Assembly: GCF_004681125.1 (NCBI RefSeq)
Contig: NZ_SIHO01000001.1
Span: 372,001-436,000 of the forward strand
Length of the DNA: 64,000 nucleotides
Reading direction: 5' to 3'
Source of the DNA: Glacieibacterium arshaanense
Lineage (GTDB): Bacteria; Pseudomonadota; Alphaproteobacteria; Sphingomonadales; Sphingomonadaceae
Shown here: piece by piece, positions 1 to 38,371 of the stretch
How positions within the stretch are numbered: position 1 is the stretch's first letter
Layout: each line of letters opens with the position of its first letter
The notes under the pieces: model-generated
Database searches by the model: none
Told to the model about the DNA's origin: nothing
What the model saw: the letters and a program-made list of their open reading frames with translations, nothing else
Program-made: the position numbers and the translations under genes

Positions 1-2
1 TG

Positions 3-389
3 ACGGGTGGCGTCGACCCGAGCGATTGGAGCTTCACCCAGTCGGTCACCAGCGTTGTCGCGCCAGCTGCGGCGGTGATGCCGATGTCGGTCTTGGCGCT
101 CGACACGCAGGGAGTCGATCTGACGTCGGTGGCAGCGACCGAAACCGATCTGGTGCTCGCCACCAGCGACACGCCCGACCTGTCCAGTGTGCTCGATGAT
201 AGTGTCGATCAGACCGACATGTTCCCCGATGATAGTGCACAGGCAGCGCAGCAGGTCACCGAGGACGCTGGCACTTTTGATCCCGCCGTCCCCGAAGCAG
301 CCGCTGCGCAGGGCCATGACGGTGGACGGGACGGAGTGTGGCTTCCGTTCGCCAACGCCGACCACCACGTGCCGTACCACCACGCTTGA
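3..389 (+). CDS. C-terminal part of an unknown protein (5' end outside window)
   Basis: The frame is open from the first bases of the window and closes at a TGA at 387-389, so this is the last about 128 residues of a gene that starts upstream. The visible tail is acidic and rich in Ala, Asp, Thr and Val (it contains LDDSVDQTDMFPDDSAQ) and ends with a His-rich stretch, ADHHVPYHHA. I see no domain that I recognise, no membrane span and no catalytic motif. The composition suggests a secreted or surface protein, but that is only an impression. A strong hairpin 12 bases after the stop fits a real gene end. Confidence 0.5.
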   Translation, partial: TGGVDPSDWSFTQSVTSVVAPAAAVMPMSVLALDTQGVDLTSVAATETDLVLATSDTPDLSSVLDDSVDQTDMFPDDSAQAAQQVTEDAGTFDPAVPEAAAAQGHDGGRDGVWLPFANADHHVPYHHA

Positions 390-28125: not shown

Positions 28126-29382
28126 TCAGACGCGCGTAGGAATGACCACGCGCATCGATTCATAGCCCTTCACGAACGTCGAGAACACGCGCTTGGGTTC
28201 GGCGACGACTTCGATGGTCGGGAAGCGCTTGAGGATTTCCTGCCAGATGATCGTCAGCTGCAGTTCGGCGAGGCGGTTGCCGACGCAGCGGTGGATGCCG
28301 AAGCCGAAGCTCAGGTGCTGGCGCGGGCGGGCGCGGTCGATGATATAGTCGTTGGGGCGTTCGATGACGGTGTCGTCGCGGTTGCCCGACACGTACCACA
28401 TGACGACCTTGTCGCCCTTGCGGATCTGCTTGCCCTGGAACTCGATGTCCTGCGTTGCGATGCGGCGCATGTGCGGCAGCGGCGTTTGCCAGCGGATGGT
28501 TTCGGAGACCATCGAGGTGATGAGATCGGGGTTGGCGCGCAGCTTGGCGTATTGGTCGGGGTTCTGGTTGAGCGCCAGCACCGAGCCGCTGATCGTGTTG
28601 CGCGTCGTGTCGTTGCCGCCCACCGTCAGCAGCACGATGTTGCCGAAATATTCGCGCGGCGACATGTTGCGCGTCGCCGGCCCGTGCGCGAGCATCGAAA
28701 TCAGGTCGTTGCCCGGCTCGGCGTTGACGCGCTGGTTCCACAGCTCGGTGAAATAGGCGTGGTATTCGGTGAAGATCGCGAACTTCTGCTCGAGCGTATC
28801 GATCAGGCCCTGGCCGGGCACCGCGGTGACGACGTCGGACCAATAGGTCAGCTTGCGGCGGTCTTCCTGCGGCATGTCGAACAGCGTCGCCAGCGTCATT
28901 GCGGTCAACTCCATCGACACTTTGTCGACCCAGTCGAACTCCTCGCCGATCGGTAGCGAGTCGAGGATCTTCGCCGCACGTTCGCGGATCAGCGGTTCGA
29001 GCCGCGCGAGGTTGAACGGCGACACCGCCGGGTTGACGGTCTTGCGCTGTTCATCGTGCTTGGGCGGGTCCATCGCGATGAACATCGGCAGCGGGCCCTG
29101 CTCGCCGTCCTGCGAGGCGATGGTGATGCCGCCCTCGGACGAGAACACCGCATGGTTGGTGTCGACCGCCATGATGTCGTTGTATTTGGTGATTGACCAA
29201 TACGGGCCGTAGTTGCTTTCGGCGGTGTAGTGCACCGGGTCTTCGGCGCGCAGGCGCTCGAAATACGGCCACATCGTATCGTTCTGGAACTGCTCGGGGC
29301 GCGCCGGATTGAGCTCGGCGAGCGGCAGCGCATAGGCCTGTGCGCGTGCGGCGGCGAGGCGCTCTGCGTGAGTGGCAATCAT
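28126..29382 (-). CDS. Cytochrome P450, CYP153-like alkane/fatty acid hydroxylase
   Basis: The 418-residue soluble P450 has VGGNDTTRNTISGSVLALNQ in the I helix, ETIRWQTPLPHMRR (ExxR), DRARPRQHLSFGFGIH and RCVGNRLAE with the haem Cys near residue 366. These phrases are characteristic of the CYP153 family, which hydroxylates the terminal carbon of medium-chain alkanes and related compounds. CYP153 enzymes need a ferredoxin and ferredoxin reductase; none is in the window. It is divergent from an MFS transporter 191 bases away. Confidence 0.88.
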   Translation of the reverse strand: MIATHAERLAAARAQAYALPLAELNPARPEQFQNDTMWPYFERLRAEDPVHYTAESNYGPYWSITKYNDIMAVDTNHAVFSSEGGITIASQDGEQGPLPMFIAMDPPKHDEQRKTVNPAVSPFNLARLEPLIRERAAKILDSLPIGEEFDWVDKVSMELTAMTLATLFDMPQEDRRKLTYWSDVVTAVPGQGLIDTLEQKFAIFTEYHAYFTELWNQRVNAEPGNDLISMLAHGPATRNMSPREYFGNIVLLTVGGNDTTRNTISGSVLALNQNPDQYAKLRANPDLITSMVSETIRWQTPLPHMRRIATQDIEFQGKQIRKGDKVVMWYVSGNRDDTVIERPNDYIIDRARPRQHLSFGFGIHRCVGNRLAELQLTIIWQEILKRFPTIEVVAEPKRVFSTFVKGYESMRVVIPTRV

Positions 29383-32500: not shown

Positions 32501-34384
32501 TCAGCCCGGCTGATACCAGATCGGCGAGCTCCACGCGCGCTCCTGGATGCTGACTGGCAGCTTGCCCGGGATCGGCACGCCGAGTTTTGCTGCAGCAATC
32601 GTGCTCCAGCGCGGCGTCGGAATTTCGAGCACGCGGGCATAGTAGAAGGCGCGCACCTTGGGATCGAAATCGGGGTCGGTCCAGGTGCTGGCGAGCGACG
32701 CGCTGCCGATGCTGTTGGTGTATTTGCCGGTCTTCAGATCGACAGTGTTGCCGACCGCAGGCAGCTTGCCGGCGGCGTCGGGCTTGCGGTCACCGCTCCA
32801 CACGACGTCGTAGATTTTCTCATGCTGCGCGCCCTTGGCATCGACCCAGCCCTTGACGATCTGGACGCGGTCGAGGTTGCCGCTCTTGGGGTCCTTGAGC
32901 GCTGTGACCATGAACGTAGGGGCCTTGCCCGTGCCCTTGAGGTCGCCGCCCATCGGCACGCCGCGCTTGTAGCCGCGCTGGACAAAATCGCTGGCGGTGA
33001 CATCGCCCGGCGCAAAGTCCCAGCCGCCGAAGAAGCGCACCTTGATCATCGTGCCCGAGGTGCCGAAGGTTTCCTTGCGCGCCATCGCGTCGTAGATCGC
33101 GCCGCGCGTGTTCTTTTCGGCCCAGACGCCGGCGAGACCGCCCGAGCTGAACTCGCGGATCTGCTGGATCTGGCCTTCGGGCATGCCGGGTGCGCCGCCC
33201 AGCGCAAAGCGCGGGTCGTTCTCGTGCGCGAACTTGCCGGTGTTGTTGAATTCCTCGTTGGTGCCGGCGGCGTTGTGCGTGTCGCTGTCGCCGATGAAGC
33301 CGTATTTGAACGGGTTGCCCTTGCCCGCCGCGTCCTGCGACAGGCCGTCGAGTAGTGCTTGCCGCGCGAAGCTGCCGCGGTGGTTGACCGGGCGCTGGAA
33401 GTCCGCCGACAGCGTGTAGTTCCACTGTTCGAAGCCGGCAAATTCGTCGTTCGGCGACAGGCCCGGCCAGGTTTCCGATGTGCCCTTGATCTGGCTGATT
33501 TCGTACAGCGGCTCGTTCTTGGCGCGCGTGGCATTGTACGCGGCATCGATCGGCTTGCCGTCGAACTTGGTCAGTTCGAACATGCGGCCGTCGCTGGCGT
33601 TGCCGTTGTGCGGAATCGCGAACAGCGTCGCGCCATTGTCGCGCTGCTTGGCCATCCACGCCCACAAAGTTTCGGGGTCATCCGATTCGAGCGACGACAA
33701 CACCAGATCGGGCAGGTGTGCAGTATCGCGGAACACCACGACGCGGTGCAGGTTGCGCTTCTGCGGGTTCGACGTCCATTCGAAGCCGGCAAAGGTGGTG
33801 AACTTGCCGGGCTTGTAGTTGGCGTCGGCGGCCTTGATGATTTCTTCCCAGACCGAATGCGCCAGCTTGGGATCGGTGAACGCCGGATCGATCTTGCCGG
33901 CGCTCATGTCGCGCAAAATGCCCGCGAACGTCTGCAGCGCGACATTGGCGTCGGGCGAGGTCACGCCGGCGGCGAGCGGGTGCTTGCTCAGCGGGCTGTC
34001 AGGGTTCGACATCTGGTTGAACACGCCCATGAACTCGGCGTGTTCGGACACCATGTAGAAATCGAGCGGGGTGACGATCTGGATCTTGCCGCCAACGCCG
34101 CTGTTGGTGATTTCCTTGCCCTGCGCCCAGGCATAGGCGTCTTCGGGCTTGGTCTTGCTGCCGTTGGTCAGCGCGTCGAACGAATAGCCGGTGTGGACAT
34201 GGACGTTGCCGAAATAGGCGTTGCGCTCGGGGTTCGACGGAATTGCCGCCTCGGCTTCGTTCTCACCGGCGATGGCGGTCGCGGCGACCTCGGTCTTGCC
34301 GGGCGTTTCGGCCTTTTTCGAACAGCCCGCGAGCGTCAAGACGCTGGCGCCGAGCAGCAGTGCCGTCATTGTCGATTTGATCAT
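32501..34384 (-). CDS. DUF3604 lipoprotein, PHP-like metallohydrolase candidate (paralogue 1)
   Basis: The 627-residue protein has a lipoprotein signal (LTLAGC, Cys21) and a DUF3604 domain over nearly all the rest. Its motifs look like a PHP-type metal site: VHVHTGYSFDA at 61-71 (HxH), YMVSEHAEF, AIPHNGNASDG, and GDSDTHNAA near the middle. The family has no proven reaction. It would act in the periplasm or on the outer membrane. A clear paralogue lies directly upstream (34464-36368), sharing for example NLDRVQ, FDPKVRAFYYARVLEIPTPR and the ending SSPIWYQPG. Confidence 0.82.
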   Translation of the reverse strand: MIKSTMTALLLGASVLTLAGCSKKAETPGKTEVAATAIAGENEAEAAIPSNPERNAYFGNVHVHTGYSFDALTNGSKTKPEDAYAWAQGKEITNSGVGGKIQIVTPLDFYMVSEHAEFMGVFNQMSNPDSPLSKHPLAAGVTSPDANVALQTFAGILRDMSAGKIDPAFTDPKLAHSVWEEIIKAADANYKPGKFTTFAGFEWTSNPQKRNLHRVVVFRDTAHLPDLVLSSLESDDPETLWAWMAKQRDNGATLFAIPHNGNASDGRMFELTKFDGKPIDAAYNATRAKNEPLYEISQIKGTSETWPGLSPNDEFAGFEQWNYTLSADFQRPVNHRGSFARQALLDGLSQDAAGKGNPFKYGFIGDSDTHNAAGTNEEFNNTGKFAHENDPRFALGGAPGMPEGQIQQIREFSSGGLAGVWAEKNTRGAIYDAMARKETFGTSGTMIKVRFFGGWDFAPGDVTASDFVQRGYKRGVPMGGDLKGTGKAPTFMVTALKDPKSGNLDRVQIVKGWVDAKGAQHEKIYDVVWSGDRKPDAAGKLPAVGNTVDLKTGKYTNSIGSASLASTWTDPDFDPKVRAFYYARVLEIPTPRWSTIAAAKLGVPIPGKLPVSIQERAWSSPIWYQPG

Positions 34385-34463
34385 GGCCTTCGTCCTTCGA
34401 TACGCTGGAAAGCTTGAACAATTTAGCAGACTGGTCCCCGATGGAAAGTCGCGGAATGCGCGG

Positions 34464-36368
34464 TCAGGCTGGCGTATACCAGATCGGTGACGAGACGGCG
34501 CGTTCCTGCAGCTTCATCGTCACCTCGGGCGCCATCTTCACCTTGAAGCGCTTGGCGTCATAGGCGGTCCAGCGCGGCGTCGGGATTTCGATGGCGCGGG
34601 CATAGTAGAATGCGCGCTGGCGCGGGTCGAAGCCGGGGTCGCGGAAGCTGCCGACGAGTTCGCTGGCGCCGATCGAGTTGCGGTAGCTGGCGTTGGCGAC
34701 ATCGACGGTATCGCCGACCGGCGGCAGCTTGCCGGCGACGGGCTTGCGCTTGGCCGGGCTGCTCCAGACGACATCGAAAATCGCCTCGCGCGGCTTGCCA
34801 TCGGCATCGAGCCAGCCCTTGATGACTTGCACGCGGTCGAGGTTGGCGCCGCGCGGGTCCTTCATTGCCGCGACGAGGAAGGTCGGCACCGCGCCTTGCG
34901 CCGGCTTGAGGTCGCCGCCCATCGGCACGCCCTTGGCATAGCCTGCAGCGACCAGCTTGTCGGCACGCGCGTCGGCGGCGTCGAAGCCGTAGCCGCCGAA
35001 GAAGCGCAAGGTGATGCGCGGCCCCGACGAGGCATAGGTTTCCTTGCGCATCATCGCGTCCCAGATGGCGTCGCGGGTGTTCGCGTTCGCCCAGACTCCG
35101 GTGACGCCCTGCGCCGCTTGCGTCCAGGTGCGGCGGACATAGCCGCTGTCTTCCTTGCGGTGGACGGCGTTCCAGGTGTCGGCGGCGGGCGCCCCCTTGG
35201 CCCAGTAATTGCTCTCGACCGGCGTGCTCAGGCCGGTGTGCGCGTCGGTACCGGCGGCGGCGCCGAACTTGAACGGATTGACCCCGACGCGCGCGCCGAT
35301 GACCATCCCGCGCTCCAAACCGGTGCGGGCATATTCGCCCGCGACCATGCCCGGTTGCTTGGTCTTGCCGTTGAGGTTGGCGGTGTCCCAGATTTCGAAG
35401 TTGGCGAACTCGTCGGTCGGTGACAGCGCCGGGTGCGCTTCGCTGGCGCCCTTGAACTGGTAATATTCGTACAGCGGTTCCCAGCGCGCGCGCATTTCGG
35501 CCCATTCGCGGGTGATGGGCTCGCCGTCGTACTGCTGGTCTTCGAACATGCGGCCGTTCGACAGATTGGCGTTGTGCGGGATCGCCAGAACGCGGCCGCC
35601 GGTCTTTTTCTCATAGCCCGCCATCCAGCGCCACAGCACGGCGGGGTCATCGGTTTCGAAGGTGGTCAGCGGGCGGACTTGCCCGGCCTTGTCGGCGGCG
35701 TCGCGGAAAATCAGGTTGCGGTGGAGGTTGTCGCCGTTGCCGCCGTTCGACGTCCATTCATAGCCGATCAGCGCGGTGAAGCGGCCGGGCTCGTTGTATT
35801 TGTCCATGATGGCGATCGATTTCGCCCAGGCCTGTTTCATCCATTTGGGGTCCATCATGATCTTGGGCAGCGTGCCGGTGGCCTGCGCGTTGATCGCCTC
35901 GAGCTGCGCCGCACGCGCCTGCGCGCCACCGGCGGCGGTCATCGCGGCCCAGCGCTTGGCGGTCGGGTCGGCGAGCATTTCGGGGTTGCCGGCGCGCAGT
36001 TCGCTGGCGGTGCCATAGCCGTCGCTGTGATCGGTGACCGCCAGCCAGTCGAGCGGCACGTCGAGCTTGGCGTCCTCGCCGGTGCTCGACTTGACGGTTT
36101 CGCCGCGTGCGAAGCGCACCGCGTCTTCGGGTGTCAGCGTCGTGCCGCCGAGCGAGGCGTCGCCCGACCAGCCGGTGTGGAGATGCTCGTCACCCCACAG
36201 CACGCGCGTCGGATATTTGCGGTCGGCATCGGGCAGATAGCTACCGCGCGCCAGCCCCGGCGCGGCGTTGGTCGCTGCCACCGGTGCGGTGACCGGCGGC
36301 AGCAACAGTGCCGTCACCCCGGCAACGCTGACACCCGCCAGCAATAGCATTCCAAACGAAACCCGCAT
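34464..36368 (-). CDS. DUF3604 exported protein, PHP-like metallohydrolase candidate (paralogue 2)
   Basis: The 634-residue protein starts with an N-terminal hydrophobic signal or anchor (SFGMLLLAGVSVAGVTALLL) but has no lipobox. The PHP-like motifs are intact: DEHLHTGWSGDAS at 60-72, WLAVTDHSDGYG, AIPHNANLSNG and AGTDAHTGLS. Like its neighbour it is a member of DUF3604 (function unknown). ATG 36368 follows GGGGGAG; the open frame to 36440 is not used. It is divergent from the parvulin-like isomerase gene across 165 bases, and the four genes 32501-38371 look like one functional group. Confidence 0.82.
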   Translation of the reverse strand: MRVSFGMLLLAGVSVAGVTALLLPPVTAPVAATNAAPGLARGSYLPDADRKYPTRVLWGDEHLHTGWSGDASLGGTTLTPEDAVRFARGETVKSSTGEDAKLDVPLDWLAVTDHSDGYGTASELRAGNPEMLADPTAKRWAAMTAAGGAQARAAQLEAINAQATGTLPKIMMDPKWMKQAWAKSIAIMDKYNEPGRFTALIGYEWTSNGGNGDNLHRNLIFRDAADKAGQVRPLTTFETDDPAVLWRWMAGYEKKTGGRVLAIPHNANLSNGRMFEDQQYDGEPITREWAEMRARWEPLYEYYQFKGASEAHPALSPTDEFANFEIWDTANLNGKTKQPGMVAGEYARTGLERGMVIGARVGVNPFKFGAAAGTDAHTGLSTPVESNYWAKGAPAADTWNAVHRKEDSGYVRRTWTQAAQGVTGVWANANTRDAIWDAMMRKETYASSGPRITLRFFGGYGFDAADARADKLVAAGYAKGVPMGGDLKPAQGAVPTFLVAAMKDPRGANLDRVQVIKGWLDADGKPREAIFDVVWSSPAKRKPVAGKLPPVGDTVDVANASYRNSIGASELVGSFRDPGFDPRQRAFYYARAIEIPTPRWTAYDAKRFKVKMAPEVTMKLQERAVSSPIWYTPA

Positions 36369-36533
36369 GTTCAAACTCCCCCGGCGTGACGCTTGCTGCG
36401 TCGTTGCTGCAACGGTGAAGCCTGGCGCGGCATGGGTCAAGGTGGCGCCCGCATCGACGCTTTATCTATCGGCGGGGCTCGCCTAGAACAGGCGCCGGCT
36501 CGGGGCTCAAACCGCCACCGCCGGGAGATTTTC

Positions 36534-37370
36534 TTGAGTATCCGAACGATTCTGCGCGAGCCGCTGTTGCACTTCCTGCTGATCGGACTCGGGCTGTTCG
36601 TGTTGTACGGGCAGGTGTCGCCCGGCGATGCCAACACCAAGCGCATTGTCGTCGGCCAGGCGCGCGTCGATGACATGGCGGCGCAGTACAAGGCGCTGTG
36701 GGGGCGGCCGCCGTCCGCCACTGAACTCAACGGACTGGTCGATGGCTTCGTGCGCGACGAGATCGTCTACCGCGAAGGGCTGTCGCTCGGGCTCGACAAG
36801 GATGACGCGGTCATCAAGCGCCGCGTGCGCCAAAAATATGATTTGATGGCGGAGGAGGAGACGGCGCGCACCACGCCGACCGATGCCGATCTGCAGGCGT
36901 GGCTCAAGGCGCATCCGCAGTCGTTCGTGCGCCCGGCGGTGGTCAGTTTCGACCAGATCCATTTCGACCCCGCCATCGCGACGCCGGCAAGCGTCGCCGC
37001 TGCGCAAGCCGAACTGGCACGCGGCGTTGATCCGGCAAAGCTCGGCCAGCCGTCGATGCTGCCCGGCCACGTCAACGCCACCGCGCTCGACCTGGTGGCG
37101 CGCGACTTCGGCGAGGATTTTGCGCAGCAAGTGGCCGCAGCGCCGATTGGCCGCTGGGTCGGGCCGTTCCAGTCGGGGATGGGGGTGCATCTGCTGCGCG
37201 TCAGCGCGCGTGCCGCGCCGCAACTGCCGCCACTCGCCGACATCCGCACCGAGGTGGCGCGCGAGTGGGAGAACGACCAGCGCATCCGCGCCCGTGCCGA
37301 TGTGCTGGCGCGGCTGCGCAAGGATTATGACGTCATCATCGAGGCCAAGCTGCCCGGAGCGACCAAGTGA
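36534..37370 (+). CDS. Membrane-anchored parvulin-like peptidyl-prolyl isomerase
   Basis: This 278-residue protein has one N-terminal membrane helix (LLHFLLIGLGLFVLYGQV), then a helical SurA/PpiC-type chaperone region (IVYREGLSLGLDKDDAVIKRR) and a C-terminal rotamase-like domain ending IGRWVGPFQSGMGVHLLRVSAR. It should fold exported proteins in the periplasm. The start is a TTG at 36534, preceded by GGGAG; no ATG fits. Its stop overlaps the next gene's ATG (TGATG), so isomerase and HupE/UreJ protein are made together. Confidence 0.82.
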   Translation: MSIRTILREPLLHFLLIGLGLFVLYGQVSPGDANTKRIVVGQARVDDMAAQYKALWGRPPSATELNGLVDGFVRDEIVYREGLSLGLDKDDAVIKRRVRQKYDLMAEEETARTTPTDADLQAWLKAHPQSFVRPAVVSFDQIHFDPAIATPASVAAAQAELARGVDPAKLGQPSMLPGHVNATALDLVARDFGEDFAQQVAAAPIGRWVGPFQSGMGVHLLRVSARAAPQLPPLADIRTEVAREWENDQRIRARADVLARLRKDYDVIIEAKLPGATK

Positions 37371-38371
37371 TGCGGCGGCTTCTGACGTTGTTGCTGTGGT
37401 TGCTCGCCATGCTGGCGGCGCCGGTTGCCGCCGACGAGTTTCGCCCGGCGTATCTGCAGATTACCCAGGCCGGGCCGACCAGCTATGACGTGCTGTGGAA
37501 GGTGCCGGCGCTTGACGAGAACACCACGCTCAAGGTCAAGCCGGTGTTCCCCGCGGGCACGACCGCGGCCACCCCCAAGCACACCAGCTATGCCAATGGC
37601 ATGGCGGTGCAGCGCTGGCGCGTCGAAGTGGCGGGCGGGCTCGACGGCAAGACCATCGGCTTTCCCGACCTGCCGAATTCACGCACCGATATCATCGTCC
37701 GGCTGGCGCGCGCCGACGGCACGGTGCAGCTCGACCGCATCCTCGCGGTCGATCCCAACTTCACCGTCAAGGCCAGCCCCGGCGCGTTCGAGGTCGTGCA
37801 GACCTACACCGTGCTCGGCATCGAACACATTCTGACCGGTTTCGATCACCTGTGCTTCGTGCTGGCGCTGGTGATGATCGTGCGCGGCACGCGGCGGCTG
37901 TTGTGGACGGTCACCGCGTTCACGCTGGCACATTCAATCACGCTGGCACTCGCCACGCTGGGCGTCATCCATGTCCCCGGCCCGCCGGTCGAGGCAACCA
38001 TCGCGCTATCGATCGTCTTCGTCGCCAGCGAAATCGTCCAGCAACTGCGCGGCCGCGAAGGACTGGCGGCGAAGAAGCCGTGGCTGGTGGCATTCAGCTT
38101 CGGGCTGCTGCACGGGCTGGGATTTGCCGGTGCGCTCGCCGAAATCGGCCTGCCGGCGAATTCGATTCCGCTGGCGCTGCTGTTCTTCAACGTCGGCGTC
38201 GAAATCGGGCAATTGCTGTTTATCGCTGTCGTGCTGGCGACGACGCGCTTGCTGTGGCGGCTGGTCGGCGACCGTTTCGATCTGCACCGCGCGGCGATTG
38301 TCCCGGCTTATCTGATCGGCGGGATCGCCAGCTATTGGGTGATCGAACGCATCGTCAAATTTTGGCTCTGA
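37370..38371 (+). CDS. HupE/UreJ-family membrane protein
   Basis: The 333-residue protein has a signal peptide (cleavage near PVAADE), an exported beta-rich domain of about 120 residues, and then about six transmembrane helices with the HupE/UreJ signature GIEHILTGFDHLCFVLAL, plus AHSITLALATLG and FGLLHGLGFAGAL. HupE/UreJ proteins are linked to nickel or other metal supply for hydrogenase and urease; neither enzyme is encoded here. Coupling to a parvulin-like isomerase and proximity to two DUF3604 genes suggest metal supply to those proteins; this is inference. Confidence 0.85.
   Translation: MRRLLTLLLWLLAMLAAPVAADEFRPAYLQITQAGPTSYDVLWKVPALDENTTLKVKPVFPAGTTAATPKHTSYANGMAVQRWRVEVAGGLDGKTIGFPDLPNSRTDIIVRLARADGTVQLDRILAVDPNFTVKASPGAFEVVQTYTVLGIEHILTGFDHLCFVLALVMIVRGTRRLLWTVTAFTLAHSITLALATLGVIHVPGPPVEATIALSIVFVASEIVQQLRGREGLAAKKPWLVAFSFGLLHGLGFAGALAEIGLPANSIPLALLFFNVGVEIGQLLFIAVVLATTRLLWRLVGDRFDLHRAAIVPAYLIGGIASYWVIERIVKFWL

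Follow-up and report, generated by a model that had tools for sequence, protein, structure and literature searches.

The stretch of DNA considered here (the window) comprises 64,000 nucleotides of Glacieibacterium arshaanense (contig NZ_SIHO01000001.1, positions 372,001 to 436,000; coordinates below are counted within the window). It carries two tandem DUF3604 genes on the minus strand that diverge from genes for a parvulin-like protein and a HupE/UreJ-2 protein (HupE2) on the plus strand; open reading frames and Pfam matches agree with a previous sequence-only reading of this DNA on the presence and orientation of all four. We propose that the locus encodes an exported PHP-type metallohydrolase and a coupled accessory pair within a rearranged form of a widespread cassette, an interpretation to which we assign a probability of roughly 40%. 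The locus is composed as follows.

32501..34384, minus strand: DUF3604 protein b, 627 aa, a predicted lipoprotein and PHP-like exported hydrolase (open reading frame; PF12228, 716 bits)
34464..36368, minus strand: DUF3604 protein a, 634 aa from ATG 36368, with a Sec-like signal and a predicted PHP domain and C-terminal immunoglobulin (Ig)-like domain (PF12228, 734 bits; model)
36369..36533, no strand: divergent intergenic region of 165 bp, set by the revised gene starts
36534..37370, plus strand: parvulin-like protein (Rotamase_2), membrane-anchored, 278 aa from TTG 36534 (PF13145, 55.8 bits; conservation)
37368..37372, plus strand: TGATG stop/start overlap (sequence), likely to mediate translational coupling
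37370..38371, plus strand: HupE2, 333 aa, with a signal, a periplasmic beta domain (about 22-133) and a HupE permease domain (about 139-333) (PF13795, 163.5 bits; model)
37433..37435, plus strand: codon of Asp22, the predicted mature N-terminus of HupE2, in place of the metal-binding His1 of Ang-1 (fold alignment to 9gce)

A conserved DUF3604-parvulin-HupE2 cassette

The Pfam scores compare with cut-offs of 20.4 bits for DUF3604, 27 for the PPIC-type domain of the parvulin-like protein (Rotamase_2) and 24.5 for HupE_UreJ_2; NCBIfam yielded no match for any of the four proteins. A lipobox (LTLAGC) recognized by eye in the protein encoded at 32501-34384 agrees with the earlier lipoprotein call, and the other DUF3604 protein has, also by eye, a plain Sec-like signal. 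Two gene starts were revised. The second DUF3604 gene most likely begins at ATG 36368 instead of the listed 36440, and the parvulin gene at TTG 36534, behind GGGAG, instead of 36393; the parvulin frame is open upstream of this TTG and reaches into the start of the opposite-strand DUF3604 gene. The parvulin stop codon (TGA, 37368-37370) shares a nucleotide with the HupE2 ATG at 37370, which confirms the gene overlap described previously.

Conservation was assessed in 147 genomes of the order to which G. arshaanense belongs and in a phylum sample of 398 genomes. Within the order DUF3604 is present in 48, HupE2 in 79 and both in 47 genomes. In 42 of the 48, the two genes are no more than 5 kb apart; the 48 include G078, which has two weak fragments and probably lacks a true DUF3604 gene. 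By a rough estimate, chance would account for such proximity in about 0.5% of genomes. Among 20 further DUF3604 genomes over the cut-off outside the order, 18 possess HupE2 over the cut-off, 17 of them within 5 kb. The neighbourhood is thus conserved beyond close relatives, without which the sequence-only reading would have fallen. HupE2 is also enriched in DUF3604 genomes, both in the order (47/48 versus 32/99 others, p 6.5e-16) and in the phylum sample (26/28 versus 70/370, p 1.2e-15), in tests that ignore shared ancestry, include eight genomes of the order among the 28 and leave out G273, whose match is below the cut-off. In four of the six DUF3604 genomes of the order in which the genes are unlinked, the pair is located elsewhere (G059, G083, G117, G131); G002 has HupE2 on another contig, and the sixth is G078.

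HupE2 lies downstream of DUF3604 on the same strand at 50 of 52 DUF3604 places with HupE2 within 20 kb, the two exceptions being those of the window itself. Of the 46 linked loci of the order 40 were read, and at all of these DUF3604, parvulin and HupE2 genes are present and point in one direction, with HupE2 preceding parvulin at one of them (L187). The order DUF3604-parvulin-HupE2 prevails at 97 loci with all three genes (75 loci; parvulin-HupE2-DUF3604 at 16, other orders at 6), locus counts being slightly inflated because two collections contributed some of the loci, L045 and L076 apparently representing the same contig. Among 103 parvulin-HupE2 pairs, 75 have a candidate HupE2 start that overlaps the parvulin stop by 1-4 nt, and in 100 such a start is no more than 10 nt away; the candidate nearest to the stop was used for this count, a procedure that favours overlap. 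The divergent form seen in the window is a rare rearrangement of this one-operon arrangement. A similar form occurs in a Burkholderiales metagenome-assembled genome (MAG), and in two further genomes of the genus two DUF3604 genes are likewise divergent from HupE2, one of the contigs ending inside the latter.

Among named loci, of which the best 80 of at least 593 were considered with a bias to close relatives of the query set, the pair is found within 5.5 kb of DUF3604 at 42, and at 24 of the 38 with enough flank. According to their titles, trio loci belong to many Pseudomonadota, Pyrinomonadaceae (L078), Nitrospirales (L075), Desulfobacterales (L082, L098, L139), the Verrucomicrobia Haloferula (L116) and Prosthecobacter (L130), the cyanobacterium Microseira (L128) and Sulfurovum (L084), with misbinning possible where the taxon derives from MAG contigs. 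Eight plasmid stretches were viewed first, and six of them, one conjugative, carry the annotated trio; the other two have broken DUF3604 frames (L294) or represent the Novosphingobium case described below (L287). A correlation of distances was not relied on, as r ranged from 0.62 to 0.72 over 91 cassettes but from 0.23 to 0.38 over 37 named ones.

Two loci show signs of decay: on a conjugative plasmid of Sinorhizobium medicae a broken second DUF3604 gene (L288, 1140-3253) lies upstream of an intact cassette, and in G176 a short frame (L041, 1216-1815) fuses the start of DUF3604 to the end of HupE2, apparently a remnant of cassette deletion.

The genome of G. arshaanense contains five DUF3604 genes and a single HupE2 gene, that of the window. 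A second DUF3604-parvulin pair (C3:812341-814842) is followed by TauE and Alph_Pro_TM genes, which stand where HupE2 would be expected (L011, 8183-12672). The other two DUF3604 genes have neither parvulin nor HupE2 in their 18-kb stretches.

Predicted folds and ligand residues

An AlphaFold model of DUF3604 based on 19 sequences (predicted local distance difference test, pLDDT, 80.7; predicted template modelling score, pTM, 0.84) has PHP phosphoesterases as its best fold matches, namely BVU_3505 (3e38; Z 17.5 over 236 residues) and TM0559 (2anu; Z 17.5 over 210), followed by PsfC (7rty; Z 14.3) and EndoQ (7k30; Z 14.0); 3e38 is also the single Foldseek match below 0.001. Residues 454-636 are modelled as a second, Ig-like domain. 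The relationship to PHP proteins that the sequence-only reading had deduced from motifs is thus recovered in the model, and the HxH, DH, IPHN and DxH motifs it listed turn out to be part of a larger conserved set. H64, H66, D72, H116, E206, H218, H267, D377 and H379 (numbered as in alignment A1, two higher than from the ATG) are invariant in 162 of 162 distinct DUF3604 proteins, and D115 is Asp in 159 and Glu in three. The nine residues follow the order H, H, D, H, E, H, H, D, H that we take to be typical of the PHP superfamily and that is likewise found in three small PF02811 proteins of relatives (H6, H8, D13, H38, E63, H74, H189, D246, H248); judging from the model, they are expected to form one site. 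The window proteins did not match the PHP Pfam model PF02811, only PF12228 being listed, and on the modelled fold DUF3604 is a PHP-fold relative and not a PF02811 member, from whose phosphoesterases it also differs by the extra Ig-like domain and the accessory pair. PDB sequence searches with the DUF3604 protein and profile yielded nothing, and the non-appearance of a given family in a list of fold matches was taken as uninformative. Alignment of DUF3604 with PHP sets by hhalign gave a short HxH/DH match at 11% probability and nothing meaningful with a mixed set; it was not counted.

A precedent for an exported enzyme of the PHP superfamily is Sb-PDE of Sphingobium TCM1, which, according to the relevant passages of its description, is a phosphodiesterase with a Sec-type signal, as in DUF3604, and holds about two zinc ions (2.1 equivalents; PMC5460133). 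CehA/McbA metallohydrolases (NF038032), which are stated to include carbamate hydrolases (PMC8292978), weakly match one DUF3604 paralogue (that of L011; residues 58-115, E 1.4e-5), but with 24.7 bits against a cut-off of 80, and the DUF3604 proteins of the window have no match.

The HupE2 model (30 sequences; pLDDT 92.9) consists of a periplasmic beta domain and a helical permease. H153, D159 and H160, presumably the motif known as HX5DH in HupE/UreJ-2 proteins, are invariant in 30 of 30 sequences. The beta domain most closely resembles zinc-bound ZrgA (8f1b; Z 10.5) and PA4063 (Z 10.1), followed by copper-bound Ang-1 (9gce; Z 8.3). Unrelated chains also reach Z 8.3, and the Ang-1 match alone is therefore weak. 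The tie of HupE2 to metal proposed earlier gains from this a predicted domain of metal-binding type, whose fold is ZrgA/PA4063-like and less clearly Ang-1-like. A PDB sequence search with HupE2 gave only chance-level rows (E 0.8 and 0.65), and viral contigs contained no HupE2 relatives. ZrgA and PA4063 differ from HupE2 in being, as reported in part of PMC11481552, separate soluble proteins of Zur-regulated transporter operons, while no Zur pattern was found here; a MacB-like gene is also present in the Christiangramia cluster described below.

The anglerase Ang-1 (RbAng-1a, PDB 9GCE) is presented in its description as a domain that binds Cu/Ni, has a conserved histidine at its N-terminus and is proposed to feed a HupE/UreJ-2 permease (PMC12537917); HupE2 likewise has a predicted secreted beta domain ahead of such a permease. 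The fold alignment places residues 22..136 of the HupE2 model on 1..157 of the chain, over 103 residues, with residue 22 on residue 1. By contrast, the N-terminus of the window protein is Asp instead of His, for which reason we do not class it as Ang-1; there is no sequence match, and the coupled parvulin gene of the cassette is absent at 39 of 40 other long HupE2 loci. The main text of the Ang-1 paper (PMC12537917) contains neither 'DUF3604' nor 'isomerase'. Of 65 proteins, 43 have His and 22 have Asp as the predicted first residue of mature HupE2 (counted after rough de-duplication, without three copies of the window's own gene and without four of 69 sequences in which the position was absent). 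Both residues can bind metal, which suggests two sequence-defined versions. This position may represent a natural two-state series for metal binding.

Both positions that we take to be the catalytic histidine pair of parvulins are occupied by histidine in the window protein. For this protein a PDB sequence search returned nothing. It is reminiscent of NifM, a PpiC-domain protein dedicated to one metalloenzyme, on which NifH maturation is stated to depend (PMC12691677); however, the NifM case involves no permease, and the only match is the second parvulin of the G. arshaanense genome (E 0.003), far below the cut-off.

The parvulin-HupE2 pair beyond DUF3604

At 39 loci of the order HupE2 lies away from DUF3604. 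Eight of these match the cassette HupE2 model unbroken and at full length, and all eight carry parvulin; the remaining 31 have a more distant parvulin in four cases (L174-L177), and L183, at which the model is covered in two pieces and parvulin is missing, was not scored as full-length. In DUF3604-negative genomes of the phylum sample, parvulin accompanies only one of 40 long HupE2 loci (L278), which is also the sole whole-model match; this set was drawn from a longer list and left out short frames (about 235-304 aa), weak matches and about eight further long ones. Parvulin is, on these sequence matches, a marker of one HupE2 subtype. Since unlinked full-length HupE2 loci carry parvulin, the pair extends further than the link to DUF3604; DUF3604, in turn, seldom occurs without HupE2 in the genome.

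In G007, a genome rated 100% complete and devoid of DUF3604 matches, the pair is preceded by a gene for an arginase-family protein (L169; PF00491, E 5e-77) with a signal-like N-terminus, whose end overlaps the parvulin start by 8 nt. On a plasmid of Novosphingobium sp. RL4 the pair is located among three arginase-family genes, of which one predicts a product with a signal-like N-terminus and another is truncated at the edge of the stretch, adjoining a urease operon (L295, 20 kb). This locus came from a plasmid search with the L169 arginase and is in that sense a biased find; no DUF3604 is present in the 20-kb stretch, the only part of the genome searched. Ureohydrolase-superfamily enzymes can be Ni-dependent, as noted in part of PMC11271267. 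The side-by-side position of arginase-family genes, the pair, a TonB receptor and the urease operon (L295, 1-20001) may reflect a pathway for ureido compounds.

An extended cluster in Christiangramia (L101) comprises parvulin and a 708-aa HupE2 relative, detected by the cassette model and without Pfam match, followed by genes for a MacB-like permease and ZnuA and by three copies of DUF3604, of which one has the opposite orientation. At L058, L082, L098 and L139 two further genes behind HupE2 cluster with the HupE_UreJ (PF04955) type, as assigned from the Pfam match of the L082 pair.

A proposed maturation unit for exported metalloenzymes and its alternatives

The cassette and its wide distribution, the fold of the model, the invariance of the ligand residues and the gene overlap are results of the analysis; every functional step of the following proposal is inferred. 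The four genes would be a rearranged copy of the widespread three-gene cassette. DUF3604 would be a periplasmic or lipid-anchored, metal-dependent hydrolase of the PHP fold whose substrates are probably phosphoesters or esters of a similar kind. A translationally coupled accessory pair for exported metalloenzymes would be formed by the other two proteins. The anchored parvulin-like protein may chaperone the enzyme upon its export and perhaps has no isomerase activity; HupE2, whose metal-binding-type domain precedes the permease, may control transition metal at the periplasmic face such that the enzyme becomes metallated. The mechanism of the sequence-only reading, with an isomerase that folds the DUF3604 enzymes and HupE2 handing over metal, is possible. 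Besides linkage, joint presence, the parvulin-marked HupE2 subtype and the fold and ligand results, support for the proposal comes from the presence of several DUF3604 genes per HupE2 (five to one in the G. arshaanense genome), from ZnuA inside one extended cluster and from a swap of clients at two loci, where DUF3604 is absent and arginase-family genes adjoin the pair. Nothing would speak more strongly for a pair devoted to an enzyme and not to a pathway than such an exchange of metalloenzyme fold, but it is seen at these two loci, one of them the biased find.

Several observations weigh against this proposal. HupE/UreJ proteins are known as importers but DUF3604 is exported, so direct supply would require export of metal or its release from the periplasmic domain. 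Three DUF3604 genes of the G. arshaanense genome have no HupE2 nearby, and 14 of the 38 well-flanked named loci lack the pair within 5.5 kb, although parvulin or the pair lies further off at L090 and L101. The first parvulin histidine is Tyr or Phe in 91 of 107 family members and His in two, the second being His in 105. Arginase occurs at only one of eight pair loci in DUF3604-negative genomes (L161, L162, L169, L174-L177, L278), and the neighbours of the other seven, which were read in part, include no such enzyme. Finally, the urease neighbourhood in RL4 is compatible with plain nickel import for a cytoplasmic enzyme.

Taken further, the coupled pair would be a portable and previously undescribed maturation system for exported metalloenzymes, whose clients have unrelated folds (PHP-type DUF3604 and arginase-family ureohydrolases), whose metal choice is tuned by the N-terminal His or Asp and which has spread with its client on plasmids and across phyla; this broader version we regard as rather doubtful.

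Metal might instead flow inwards. DUF3604 would then cleave a phosphoester or chelator that binds metal in the periplasm, the periplasmic domain of HupE2 would catch the released ion for import by the permease, and parvulin would fold that domain. Inward transport is the known direction, HupE/UreJ nickel permeases being reported to make E. coli accumulate Ni upon expression (PMC5557971), and Ang-1 is proposed to feed metal into its permease (PMC12537917, as above); parvulin follows the HupE2 subtype, and ZnuA and extra HupE_UreJ genes stand beside some cassettes. What makes such scavenging unlikely in our view is that up to five DUF3604 genes occur per HupE2, some at loci without evident metal gene, that the 41 upstream regions inspected, including 36369-36533, contain no PhoB-, Zur-, NikR-, Nur- or CueR-like pattern and a single Fur-like match, and that scavenging does not readily explain the arginase-family enzymes in place of DUF3604.

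We consider it equally improbable that DUF3604 and its replacements belong to nutrient operons and act outside the cytoplasm to cleave organic phosphate or sulfate, ureido or carbamate compounds, with the pair merely co-regulated and delivering metal to a downstream pathway such as nickel to urease. A sulfatase-type cluster at 14 of 103 loci, the urease operon next to the arginase genes in RL4 and the zinc-containing exported phosphodiesterase Sb-PDE of Sphingobium (PMC5460133, in the passages referred to above) would suit this model. However, no single downstream pathway recurs: this cluster is already the commonest neighbour after the trio, and another, of DUF1254/DUF1214 type, is found at six loci, each cluster being named from one identified member; no third common partner emerged. 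That the genes merely travel together as a mobile accessory unit without direct biochemical link is very unlikely: the trio occurs on plasmids (six of the eight stretches), and the HupE2 and parvulin of the window have their closest counterparts, among the matches listed, in two MAGs, one of Gammaproteobacteria and one of Burkholderiales, but linkage persists across phyla despite differing gene orders, and DUF3604 and the pair are both kept, though unlinked, in four genomes of the order.

The cassette offers a compact, widespread and genetically tractable case for how enzymes outside the cytoplasm may acquire the right metal, bringing together a DUF enzyme family, a coupled putative folding factor and a metal permease with an external metal-binding-type domain. 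DUF3604, scarcely mentioned in open-licence papers, gains a modelled fold, a likely ligand set and candidate partners. In open-licence papers, excluding supplements, we found no description of the trio, the DUF3604 mention found being a list of Chlamydia mutants, and no paper combining 'UreJ' with 'peptidylprolyl isomerase'. While the component families are known, the combined set looks undescribed, in agreement with the earlier statement that no published function was known for it.

The locus is bordered on one side by genes for a cytochrome P450, an MFS transporter, an enoyl-CoA hydratase and a DsbA-like thioredoxin, and on the other by PrmA; none of these is among the recurrent neighbours at other cassette loci. 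The commonest 8-mer of the upstream regions, CTCTCCCC (20 of 41), was rejected as a regulator site because it resembles a ribosome-binding context. A dispersed element with GGGCCTCCGGCGGGCAGG arms occurs in the window at 2778, 21589/21662, 25071/25183, 38379/38452 and 44909/44969, four copies being dyads; ten arm matches at up to three mismatches, including a 3-mismatch match at 29237, compare with 0.4 expected. The copy located directly behind HupE2 could be a repetitive extragenic palindromic (REP)-like element or a terminator.

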